The notes under the pieces: model-generated
Databases searched by the model: none
Told to the model about the DNA's origin: nothing
Seen by the model: only the letters and a program-made list of their open reading frames with translations
DNA from: Thermostichus vulcanus str. 'Rupite'
GTDB taxonomy: Bacteria; Cyanobacteriota; Cyanobacteriia; Thermostichales; Thermostichaceae
Length of the DNA stretch: 64,000 nt
Direction: 5' to 3'
NCBI RefSeq assembly: GCF_022848905.1
Contig: NZ_JAFIRA010000016.1
Location: 1-64,000, forward strand
Shown here: piece by piece, positions 50,726 to 55,173 of the stretch
Layout: each line of letters opens with the position of its first letter
How positions within the stretch are numbered: position 1 is the first letter of the stretch
Made by a program: the position numbers and the translations under genes

Positions 50726-51185
50726 TCATGCGGAGCACGATGCGCCTCTACTGACTCCACTGAGGTCAAGCCCCAATGTTGCCGCTACTTTCCGGAGTAT
50801 ATTGGCAGCTCCATTGCCATCCGCATTCAGATACCCATTTCCTGCGGTTCGATAGAGTCCTCGTTTGACACGCCGTCCTGACGCTTTCCAGCCTTCGGGT
50901 TTTTCACCGTATTGGGGAAGAGCGTCCTTGTCCAGAAAACTTGCTGCTGAAGTATTCGCTTCCTCTGTTTCAACAAATCGGATGCCATACGGCTGGCAAA
51001 GCTGAGATGCTCTCTGCTTCAACCGGGCGGTGGGAATTTGGACAAACTGCTGATTCATTTTTCGCCCCATGTTGGCTGGGTCTTTTTGCCTTGGGTTCCA
51101 GTCAAAGACAACCGTTCCGGCCCTCCCGGACTTATGGTGATCAAGGATTACTAAGGCCAGAAAGCTGCCAATAATCTGGCTCTGA
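50726..51185 (-). pseudogene. TnpB C-terminal remnant (element 3)
   Basis: Only the C-terminal third survives. The frame runs from about 51185 through TVVFDWNPRQKDPANMGRKM, FVQIPTARLKQRASQLCQ and FVETEEANTSAASFL to YLNADGNGAANILRKVAATL. This matches the cyanobacterial TnpB-like subgroup with a QIPTARL and VETEEA signature. The N-terminal two thirds, including RuvC-I, are absent. The RuvC-III Asp (NADGNGAAN) is preserved, and the usual zinc-ribbon cysteines are missing here too. Confidence 0.75.
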
Positions 51186-51365: not shown

Positions 51366-51950
51366 TTAAAGGGCTGTAATGTTGGTAAACCCATACCCTT
51401 GTCGCTTGATTACCTTGATCCGGTTGTTGATTCCCTCCATGATGCCACTGGTCACACGATTGGCAAAATACTGACAGATTCCCTGAAGATGATTCTGGAT
51501 TGTTTTCACCACATCGGTGTAGATTCTTCGAACATCTTTCAGCCATGCGACTATTTGAACCTCTCCTTCTTTTACGGTGATCCTGCTCTCGAAAATGCTT
51601 CGTAGTCTTTCTTTCAGTGTATAGGCTTGCCTCAGTTGTTGACTTTGTCTTAAATAGATTGCTAGTTTTGCTTTTTCTTCCGCAGTTAAGTCTTCATTAT
51701 TCTTAAGTATGATTCTTCTTGAGCCTTTTTCTGTGAGTCGAGACTGTCGTCTAAGTCTGTCTAATTCTTTGGCAGCTTTCTGCATCACATGAAATCTGTC
51801 ATAGACAATATGTGCTTTGGGAAATACCGGCTTGACTAGCCTGGCAAATCCAGCCCACATATCGATGCCAACCTCTTCGATATTCAGCCTCTCTTCCTCT
51901 GTCCATAGGCTTTCTAAGAATTGATTGAAATCTGAGGTGATAGGGGGCCT
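51366..51950 (-). pseudogene. ISL3-family transposase remnant
   Basis: The frame carries the catalytic region of an ISL3 DDE transposase: EEVGIDMWAGFARLV (Asp), AHIVYDRFHVMQKAAKEL (Asp), and near the end FANRVTSGIMEGINNRIK (Glu), followed by KRQGYGFTN. The N-terminal zinc-finger part and the C-terminal tip are missing. The left part of the frame (from about 51950) lacks a start codon. It is a dead fragment beside TnpB element 3. Confidence 0.8.
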
Positions 51951-52214: not shown

Positions 52215-52565
52215 CTACCACTTCGGCTTGGGGATTTTGATTTGAGGGGTCAGAGGAATCGCTGCTGAGGCAATGGTACTAATGGCACTGATAATAGCTG
52301 TGGCAACCACAGCCTCACCACCGGCAACCGCTTCCAACTCTTCATCAGAGAGTTCACCAGCATCTTGACGCTCGCCAAATTCCGCTTGGCGTTTCTGCAC
52401 TTCTTCCCAAAGCTCGTCGGGAGTGACGTCATAGCCTTTGCTAACAGCAAGCTGGGCGGCAGCACCCCGATCATCCTCAGCTTCCAGAGCTTTCGCCAAC
52501 TCTTCTAGCAAAGAGGCATCTTCTCCCACCTTATCCAAAAACTCAGCAGCAGCTTGAGTGCTCAT
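52215..52565 (-). CDS. Nif11-type RiPP precursor peptide 1
   Basis: The 116-aa product has a Nif11 leader (MSTQAAAEFLDKVGEDASLL) with the conserved YDVTPDELW segment, ending at the double-glycine site ELEAVAGG (residues 82-83). The predicted core of 33 residues is hydrophobic (EAVVATAIISAISTIASAA, then IPLTPQI) and ends KIPKPKW. It has Ser and Thr but no Cys. The start at 52565 is chosen because it gives the family N-terminus; the frame reaches 52595. The leader is close to that of precursor 2 while the core is unrelated except for the last seven residues. An enzyme modifying or cleaving it may be the MBL protein at 53704. Confidence 0.85.
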   Translation of the reverse strand: MSTQAAAEFLDKVGEDASLLEELAKALEAEDDRGAAAQLAVSKGYDVTPDELWEEVQKRQAEFGERQDAGELSDEELEAVAGGEAVVATAIISAISTIASAAIPLTPQIKIPKPKW

Positions 52566-52714
52566 ATTGAAGACCCAATAAACGAACAAGAACAATTTAC
52601 CATCAAACAGTCGCAGTCAATTATTAAGAATTACTAAGGCTTCTTCCCTAGGGATCCCAATAAGCTATCCCCTCAACGCAATTTCAACTGCTGCCGAGGT
52701 GCGCTAATCAAGAC

Positions 52715-52777
52715 TTACCACTTGGGTCTTGGCAAGGAGGATTATTCGAGAAATGCGTTAACAGCCTCTATGCTCAT
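52715..52777 (-). pseudogene. Third Nif11 precursor, internally deleted remnant
   Basis: On the minus strand a 21-codon unit reads MSIEAVNAFLE, stop, SSLPRPKW, stop, in a single frame. The first part is the N-terminus of a Nif11 leader and the last part is the PKW tail of a core peptide, while the middle (about 90 residues) is gone. A GAGG-like ribosome-binding sequence precedes the ATG. It is therefore the scar of a third precursor gene located between the two intact ones. Confidence 0.65.
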
Positions 52778-52814
52778 GATCCTCACTTCAGGGTTGAAAT
52801 GAGATGGTATAGCC

Positions 52815-52857
52815 AAAAAAGAGCGGCTTGGACAATGGATATCACTAGGCCGCTCCA
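52815..52857 (-). terminator. Intrinsic terminator of precursor 2
   Basis: GAGCGGC (52821-52827) pairs with GCCGCTC (52849-52855) around a long loop. On the minus strand the structure is followed by TTTTTTGG. It ends transcripts from the nif11 gene at 52904-53245, so precursors 1 and 2 are separate units. Confidence 0.6.
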
Positions 52858-52903
52858 AAAGATATCTGCTAGTTCACACGCTACATATTTAGGCAGAAAA
52901 TAT

Positions 52904-53245
52904 TCACCACTTGGGCTTAGGAATCTTGGGCAAGGGGAAGGGCAGACCACCCCCTGGGCCCCCAGGAAAGCCAGGGATTGTGACAGGGACTGTGAGCGTT
53001 GGCCCTAAGAAGCCCCCTGCAACAGATTCAAGTTCTTCATCACTCAATTCAGTACCCGCTTCTGCCTGACGCTTTTGGACTTCTGCCCATAGTTCGTCGG
53101 GAGTAACGTCATAGCCTTTGCTAATGGCTAGCTGAGCTACAGCGGCTCGATCATCCTCAGCTTCCATAGCTTGCGCCAATTCGTTCATCAAAGCTTCATC
53201 CTCTGCGACTTTTTTGAGAAAGTCGCTGACAGCTTCTGCACTCAT
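52904..53245 (-). CDS. Nif11-type RiPP precursor peptide 2
   Basis: The 113-aa product starts MSAEAVSDFLKKVAEDEALM, carries the same ISKGYDVTPDELWAEVQKRQ leader segment as precursor 1, and ends its leader with ELESVAGG (77-78). The 35-residue core is proline- and glycine-rich (LTVPVTIPGFPGGPGGG, then LPFPLP) and ends KIPKPKW like precursor 1. There is no Cys, and the only hydroxyl residues are three Thr. The start at 53245 follows the family pattern; an ATG nine bases upstream also exists. An intrinsic terminator lies downstream. Confidence 0.85.
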   Translation of the reverse strand: MSAEAVSDFLKKVAEDEALMNELAQAMEAEDDRAAVAQLAISKGYDVTPDELWAEVQKRQAEAGTELSDEELESVAGGFLGPTLTVPVTIPGFPGGPGGGLPFPLPKIPKPKW

Positions 53246-53540
53246 ACTAAACACCTCGGGCTGGCCTACGAGTGAACTATAACACTAGCCACCCAAATTT
53301 CAGTCAAAGGAAAGGTTAAGAAACTTTCGTATTATGGGCCTCAATACATATCCGATAAAATTTGCCTGCGGAATCTACAACTCTGCAGTATTGTGACTGG
53401 TTCGTTTGGTTCAGAAGCTTGCCTTAAATGAAATATTCAAGAAGAGATGGTTTCTGTCTGTCACAGCTTCATTAAGGCTTTATCTAGCTAGATGTTCCCT
53501 TTGGAATTGACATGTTAGTATCAAGCAGCACTGCATCAAA

Positions 53541-53579
53541 TGCTCATAAGTTGTGCTCATAAGTTGTGCTCATAAGTTG
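53541..53579. repeat. Three perfect copies of a 13-bp unit
   Basis: TGCTCATAAGTTG is repeated three times in tandem in the divergent spacer (53246-53703) between precursor 2 and the MBL-fold gene. It could be a protein-binding array or simply a product of the micro-duplication process. Nothing else is seen in this spacer apart from possible promoters. Confidence 0.9.
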
Positions 53580-53703
53580 ATTGAGGGGTTGCTTGCGCCT
53601 CTATACTCTTTCGAGCATTGACTGAGATTGTGAACTTCCTAATCCTTTTTTTAGGGCTGTATTGAATTTATCGTTCTAGTAGAACAGGAAAGATTTGTTG
53701 AAG

Positions 53704-55173
53704 ATGCATGATATTCTAACTTTTGCTCGCGGATCCCAGTTCTTGGCCGTAAATGGCAACGACCAGATTTGCTATGCCGTGCAGCCATTGATACAGGCAC
53801 TGTTGCAGGATTTTGTAGATACCCATGACCTAGGGCTTTCCATACAGCGGGGACTGCAGGTGCAACCGGAGGTGGCCGAGGCTTTATTCGACATTGACCT
53901 GGACTCGCCAGAGCCCTTTTCCCTCAAGCCGCAGTTCCTATTCCCGGAAACGAACCCCCTGCTGGGTCTTTTCTTTAGCAATACCCGGATCCCGTCTTTT
54001 TTGCGTAGAGAGGGGCGAGAGGCTATTCAAGATGAGGCCATCTTGCCGGCGATTCATCAGTTGCTGGCACAGTGTGGTCGCGGCACCCAAACCCGTCAAC
54101 AGATTCTGGAGCAGCTGCCAGAAGAGGTTCATCCCCTGTTGGAAAAGTTAATCGCCTCTCAGGTCTTGGTGGAGCAACCCTATACTCCTGTTGCAGCTCC
54201 TTTGGGATCGAGTGGGGTTTATCGCCTACAACATGCCGCACTCCTTTACCGCTCGGGCACCACAGGTATTTTGGTGGATCCGCAGTTTCACTCCAACTAC
54301 GGGCGGGAAGGACTCAAAGCCGATATCACCCGCGCCATGGTGGAAGGTCAAGTGGATGCCATACTCATTTCCCACAGCCATTATGACCACTGGCATTATC
54401 CCACCCTGATGATGTTTCCTGCGGATATCCCGGTGATTGTGCCCAAAGTGCCTCGGCCCAGCTTGATGTGCGAAGACATGGAAGGACGCTTGCGCAGCCT
54501 GGGGTTTGAGCAGGTCATCGCGGTAGATTGGTATGCCGACCCGATTCGGATTGGGGATATTGATGTGCGTGTGCTGCCCTTCTACGGGGAGCAACCCTTG
54601 GTGCCCCGATTTGACAGCCCACAGCATCCCGACCTGCGCAACTGGGGCAACACTTACCTACTGCAATGCGAAGAATTCACTTCATGGTTCTTGATCGATG
54701 CGGGGTTTGAGCCGGCGGCTTCGATGGTGGAGGTAGCCGAATATGTGCGGGATCGCTTTGCACCTTTGGATCATTTGATCAGCAATTTTCAAGCCCTCTC
54801 CTACAATTCCATTGGTACCGACCTCTCCAGCTGGGGGGTTGATATTGTTGCCAACCTACTCAGCAACCCGCGTATTTTTTCGGTCACTAATGAACAGGAG
54901 GGCGGCTACATCGCCACTTTAGGACCCGCAGGCGTCGCCGAACTCAGCAGCATTACTCAAGCCAAAGCCTGCTTACCCTATGCCGATAGCTGGTCAGACT
55001 TGGGAACCCCTGGGATCCATGATCGAGAACTGATTGAGGCTACCCTCGTGGAACTTCAAAAACGGGGTGCGGCAACGGCAGTGATCCCTTGGCACATTGG
55101 GGATGGCTATGTCTACTCCAAAACGGGATCCCCTCATCAACTGCTTCGGAATGCCATTCGTTCAGGGCGTTGA
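53704..55173 (+). CDS. MBL-fold metallohydrolase with N-terminal PqqD/RRE-like segment
   Basis: The C-terminal part (about 175-485) is a metallo-beta-lactamase fold. HSHYDHWH (residues 227-234) is the HxHxDH metal motif, LIDAGFEP provides a further metal Asp, and PWHIGDGYVY a late His. Residues about 110-162 (AILPAIHQLLAQCGRGTQTR, then QILEQLPEEV) resemble the winged-helix PqqD/RRE domain, which binds RiPP leaders. The divergent neighbour genes encode Nif11 precursors. Together this suggests a maturation hydrolase, by loose analogy with PqqB. Starts at TTG 53695 or 53698 are possible; residue numbers are counted from 53695. The stop codon lies in a transposon end (55170), so the C-terminus may be truncated. 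Confidence 0.75.
   Translation: MHDILTFARGSQFLAVNGNDQICYAVQPLIQALLQDFVDTHDLGLSIQRGLQVQPEVAEALFDIDLDSPEPFSLKPQFLFPETNPLLGLFFSNTRIPSFLRREGREAIQDEAILPAIHQLLAQCGRGTQTRQQILEQLPEEVHPLLEKLIASQVLVEQPYTPVAAPLGSSGVYRLQHAALLYRSGTTGILVDPQFHSNYGREGLKADITRAMVEGQVDAILISHSHYDHWHYPTLMMFPADIPVIVPKVPRPSLMCEDMEGRLRSLGFEQVIAVDWYADPIRIGDIDVRVLPFYGEQPLVPRFDSPQHPDLRNWGNTYLLQCEEFTSWFLIDAGFEPAASMVEVAEYVRDRFAPLDHLISNFQALSYNSIGTDLSSWGVDIVANLLSNPRIFSVTNEQEGGYIATLGPAGVAELSSITQAKACLPYADSWSDLGTPGIHDRELIEATLVELQKRGAATAVIPWHIGDGYVYSKTGSPHQLLRNAIRSGR

Follow-up and report, generated by a model that had tools for sequence, protein, structure and literature searches.

What does an MBL-fold enzyme do when its gene lies opposite a pair of Nif11 precursor genes? 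The question arises in a stretch of 64,000 nucleotides (positions 1 to 64,000 of contig NZ_JAFIRA010000016.1; hereafter the window) from Thermostichus vulcanus str. 'Rupite'. An initial annotation, made from the sequence alone, proposed that this stretch contains a RiPP locus with two Nif11 precursors and, across a divergent spacer, an MBL-fold hydrolase with a leader-binding domain. We call the MBL-fold protein MBL-a.

Precursor A (116 aa; 52215..52565, minus strand, 52218-52565 without the stop codon) and precursor B (113 aa; 52904..53245, minus strand, 52907-53245 without the stop codon) are intact. Both exceeded the curated cut-offs of PF07862 (E = 1.5e-9 for A and 1.9e-11 for B) and TIGR03798 (E = 4.1e-10 and 1.6e-11, respectively), which bears out their description as Nif11 precursors with leaders that end in Gly-Gly. 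The leaders both end ELSDEELE[A/S]VAGG (ELSDEELEAVAGG in A, ELSDEELESVAGG in B), and neither the core of A (EAVVATAIISAISTIASAAIPLTPQIKIPKPKW) nor that of B (FLGPTLTVPVTIPGFPGGPGGGLPFPLPKIPKPKW) contains Cys. A sister species, genome G389, has an approximately 95% identical copy of precursor A, together with an orthologue of precursor B whose core lacks Ser, Thr, and Cys. The two window cores had been described as very different. They do differ in composition, but their translations finish in an identical hexapeptide, IPKPKW (52218..52235 in A and 52907..52924 in B, both minus strand), and its terminal Lys-Trp (KW) is family-wide.

Other features were noted around the precursors and their relatives. 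Gly-Gly is missing from the product of a third Nif11 gene in the window genome (L053:9600-9929; G000:C27); its last residues, QKIPKPEES, look like a decayed version of IPKPKW. An ISL3-type transposase fragment (51366-51860, minus strand; PF01610, E = 1e-45) and an ORF that resembles the end of an OrfB-type transposase (50726-51070, minus strand; no Pfam match) adjoin the precursors, which suggests past mobility. The divergent spacer contains a short tandem repeat at 53540-53580, with approximately three copies of gctcataagttgt.

Nif11 genes are common in cyanobacteria, where they were present in 41 of 146 genomes, and the locus might simply combine such abundant genes with an unrelated MBL gene. 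Close homologues of MBL-a (53-59% identity) were found in four further genomes among 386 of the phylum and in eight named cyanobacterial loci from a search of 84,980 species genomes, and the sister species G389 encodes a 93% identical orthologue. Counting L039 and the G030 locus once, since their contigs have equal lengths (77,909 bases), there were 13 loci in total, including the window. Nif11 genes lay within 10 kb of MBL-a in all 13 of these loci, which are not fully independent since two genera contribute two each, and in at least seven a precursor lay within 0.5 kb of the MBL-a gene. The linkage of an MBL-fold enzyme to Nif11 partners, as initially proposed, is thus clearly upheld among close homologues.

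The loci also share a feature of their peptides. KW-ending peptides were found at 12 of the 13 loci, the exception being L038, a 5.3-kb contig with a single Nif11 peptide that ends GGW. Among distinct Nif11-type peptides, 31 of 36 in MBL-a loci end in KW, whereas none of 62 sampled from genomes that lack MBL-a does so (Fisher p = 1e-20); the controls in this comparison are listed matches of the family search, mostly high-scoring, and some of the loci come from the same genus. Two further KW peptides were recovered from G119 and G109 (L128 and L162), and both genomes carry MBL-a. Because every locus with a close MBL-a homologue has Nif11 genes nearby, and with a C-terminal motif that the controls lack, the probability that the pairing is a chance neighborhood is negligible.

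The KW tail also occurs behind a different leader. An NHLP-leader precursor inside the MBL-a locus L035 ends DPKDKW, and the tail may therefore belong to the pathway rather than to the leader. This precursor is one of two with NHLP leaders that lie beside a radical SAM/SPASM protein (L035:1170-3507). A KW-ending ORF in L046 was considered as a second precursor type and dropped, as its counterpart in L047 ends LPNR. The distant MBL-a relatives (35%) of L046 and L047 have as neighbors another MBL protein, a protein with a lantibiotic-dehydratase N-domain, tryptophan halogenases, and an ABC transporter of the NHLM type. These loci represent a different RiPP-like cluster that is possibly unstudied.

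MBL-a (489 aa; 53704..55173, plus strand, divergent from the precursors) matched PF00753, PF12706, and PF13483, each over cut-off. When the single sequence was compared with the PDB, its best relatives were CmlA (E = 2.3e-11) and 8a90, which is FrsH (E = 1.6e-6); with a profile of 14 relatives, these values were 2.5e-17 and 3.4e-16. The sequence similarity between MBL-a and CmlA is limited to approximately residues 167-336. We also built an AlphaFold model of MBL-a from the alignment of 14 relatives (pLDDT 81, pTM 0.86). The top five Foldseek matches of this model were all CmlA or FrsH chains (E = 1e-16 to 3e-15; TM 0.53-0.56 on the query), and NAPE-PLD and other hydrolases ranked behind them, with E values of 2.5e-11 and weaker.

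The metal site points in the same direction. The motif H224-x-H226-x-D228-H229 (54373..54390, plus strand), within HSHYDHWH, aligns with the HNHQDH motif of CmlA, and its four metal-site residues are invariant in 14 of 14 aligned relatives. In CmlA, Glu377 replaces one metal-binding histidine, and Ala482 stands in for the last His of the compared enzyme (PMC7846560). Both departures are found in MBL-a. Glu296 (LPFYGE; 54589..54591, plus strand) occupies the position of Glu377 in the alignment to CmlA, where the column is fixed by the E377D variant 5kil, and is likewise invariant in all 14 relatives; no His column beyond residue 231 is conserved in the family. Since CmlA and FrsH are the closest relatives by both sequence and fold, and since the metal residues are of the CmlA type, we infer from homology that MBL-a is a CmlA-type di-iron oxygenase. 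On the strength of the same relatives and residues, we rejected a plain MBL hydrolase; the MBL fold and HSHYDHWH motif of the initial annotation were confirmed, but its hydrolase label was not. Between the window and sister-species orthologues, dN was 0.039 and dS 0.679. A ratio this low (dN/dS 0.057) places MBL-a under strong purifying selection across the species pair, with the proviso that a pairwise value gives neither the timing of the constraint nor its persistence past the loss of other pathway genes.

A more specific version of the hydrolase assignment holds that an MBL-fold hydrolase or protease is guided to its substrates by a PqqD/RRE-like leader-binding domain, which had been placed at residues 110-162. 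The N-terminal domain of MBL-a (aa 1-165; 53704..54198, plus strand) is mixed alpha/beta in an AlphaFold model with a pLDDT of 80. Within residues 1-176, the model contains strands at 88-93 and 103-107, helices at 111-126, 131-137, and 140-151, and a strand at 155-159. Residues 111-159 are thus modeled as helix-helix-helix-strand after two strands, resembling the order in an RRE. When the segment was aligned by hhalign with a PqqD profile made from 21 sequences of the cyanobacterial phylum, the alignment was in register with PqqD helices 2-3 and scored 18.4, compared to at most 12.6 in 20 column shuffles. However, the hhalign probabilities were 3.5% and 7.3%, which do not support homology, and Pfam PqqD matched neither MBL-a nor any of 12 family members. 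With the N-terminal model, Foldseek returned no significant match and no RRE among its matches; the highest query TM-score among these non-significant matches (0.31) was that of CmlA. An RRE/PqqD identity of the segment, although conceivable, is unsupported by Pfam, Foldseek, and hhalign. Of the two outcomes that the initial annotation named as refuting its proposal, a lack of RRE match was observed, and a lack of linkage to Nif11 genes clearly was not. As the metal site is also CmlA-like and unlike that of typical hydrolases, we regard a hydrolase guided by such a domain as very unlikely. One genuine PqqD-family gene is present elsewhere in the window genome (L096; G000:C1:34629-34826). PqqB is an MBL-fold enzyme in a RiPP pathway, and to that extent it is the distant precedent that had been suggested for MBL-a; it was recovered by none of our searches, and CmlA is clearly closer.

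At other loci, MBL-a is part of a larger gene set. It is followed by genes for two 2OG-Fe(II) proteins (c5 and c2), the c3 protein, a protein resembling alcohol dehydrogenases, another MBL protein (MBL-b), and a JmjC protein; the c2, c3, 2OG-Fe(II), JmjC, and MBL-b genes are present in most MBL-a loci with enough flanking sequence. The best PDB relative of MBL-b is also CmlA (E = 4e-6), and by extrapolation its Glu120 is at the corresponding place. The first ~390 residues of c2 have no relatives in the PDB. The c3 protein (~600 aa; for example, L074:6811-8673 and L040:9147-10928) is 49-53% identical among nine clusters and matched nothing in Pfam, NCBIfam, or the PDB.

LanM is encoded near MBL-a in many clusters. 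Our search found it in G119, G109, and G030, whereas G251 and the window genome gave no LanM match. Since two MBL-a genomes yielded no LanM and most cores lack Cys, we rejected LanM as the enzyme that the loci share. Just five of the 31 KW cores contain Cys, and one is devoid of Ser and Thr as well as Cys, which excludes LanM as a modifier of all these peptides; the scarcity of Cys also means that most products are not lanthipeptides. In the full clusters, the peptides are probably also substrates of the further oxygenases (2OG-Fe(II), JmjC, and the second CmlA-like protein), of the dehydrogenase, and, in some cases, of LanM.

Because MBL-b, 2OG-Fe(II), and JmjC proteins share many clusters with MBL-a, KW could be the site or recognition tag of another enzyme. 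On this account, the tail would serve c2, c3, a 2OG-Fe(II) protein, the JmjC protein, or MBL-b, and MBL-a would act elsewhere on the core. The frequency with which these genes accompany MBL-a fits this account, as does their persistence in G389 (L074). However, both window precursors keep KW even though c3 and LanM were not found and c2-JmjC is a scar, and among the modifying enzymes only MBL-a is encoded at every locus examined. We therefore consider it unlikely that the tail belongs to one of the other enzymes.

The window genome has the most reduced gene set. Family and protein searches found no LanM (in a search with positive controls), no Peptidase_C39, and no c3 in this draft assembly, from which a replicon may be missing. 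At G000:C7 (L069:8779-10468), a fragment of c2 is fused to a fragment of the JmjC gene. Comparison with G389, whose operon is intact (L074), shows that 6.08 kb has been deleted at this scar and that the two sides of the joint overlap by 7 bases. In the sister species, a different contig still carries LanM together with an NHLM-type exporter. With the other cluster enzymes either not found or deleted, the window genome yielded a single modifying enzyme, MBL-a, which together with the two precursors seems to be what is left of a larger set.

Since neither LanM nor a C39 exporter was found, the pathway may be decaying in this genome, and the locus could be a non-functional relict of the larger pathway. 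The deletion scar, the decayed tail of the third Nif11 gene, and the transposase fragment that adjoins the locus all speak for a relict. Against this, both precursors and MBL-a are intact, and the low dN/dS indicates constraint. MBL-a departs from conserved columns at two positions in the window copy versus one in the sister, so such departures are about as rare in both, and the failure to find LanM extends to G251, another genome with MBL-a. Given this evidence, a non-functional relict seems somewhat unlikely.

We consider it probable that the locus is a stripped-down cyanobacterial RiPP system in which KW-ending Nif11-leader precursors are acted on by MBL-a, a CmlA-like MBL-fold di-iron oxygenase. 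Judging from sequence and linkage, oxygenase activity on the linked precursors is the most likely function of MBL-a. In the mechanism we propose, the leader would recruit MBL-a, and its di-iron center (H224, H226, D228, H229, E296, and D332) would activate O2 using electrons from a donor. MBL-a would then hydroxylate the core. The invariant Lys-Trp at the C terminus is the most likely site, which we assign with moderate confidence; the leader would be cut after Gly-Gly afterwards. CmlA hydroxylates an aromatic amino acid at C-beta, and by analogy the C-beta of Trp is a candidate position, although this is speculative. More tentatively, and with slightly less than even confidence, we propose a RiPP pathway with a single modifying enzyme, in which a CmlA-type oxygenase oxidizes the C-terminal Lys-Trp of Nif11-leader peptides, defining a group that depends on neither Cys nor LanM.

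CmlA (Streptomyces venezuelae, chloramphenicol; PDB 4jo0) resembles MBL-a in combining an MBL fold with an N-terminal domain and in having an HxHxDH plus Glu site and no final His. The two proteins are ~15% identical in the structural alignment, and the N-terminal domain alone gives no significant match. The substrate of CmlA is an NRPS-tethered amino acid, whereas MBL-a is linked to ribosomal precursors; the annotated neighbors of MBL-a include no NRPS and have Nif11 precursors instead. FrsH (FR900359; PDB 8a90), a leucine beta-hydroxylase (PMC7794379), belongs to the same di-iron family as CmlA and matches the MBL-a fold with an E value of 1e-15. Unlike MBL-a, it has an NRPS-bound substrate and no RiPP context.

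Among ribosomal systems, the Nif11-type class II lanthipeptides (prochlorosins and their relatives) share with these loci a Nif11 leader with Gly-Gly, multiple precursors, and variable cores. MBL-a clusters differ from them in that 26 of 31 cores lack Cys, several oxygenases are encoded, and the KW terminus is near-invariant; at the window, in addition, LanM was not found in the assembly and the cores have no Cys. To our knowledge, the MNIO/DUF692 and alphaKG-HExxH enzymes have folds unrelated to that of MBL-a, and none is CmlA-like. Both groups use iron and beta-hydroxylate residues in ribosomal precursors (PMC13060819). In the open-access literature, which our search covered incompletely, we found no paper that joins CmlA with Nif11 and none that describes this pairing, which is not proof of novelty.

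Since the window genome carries the smallest version of the system, two precursors and one enzyme, the assignment can be tested there directly. If it is correct, CmlA-type chemistry, so far found on amino acids held by NRPS carriers (CmlA and FrsH), would extend to ribosomal peptides, and these peptides would form a RiPP group recognizable by a two-residue C-terminal signature.
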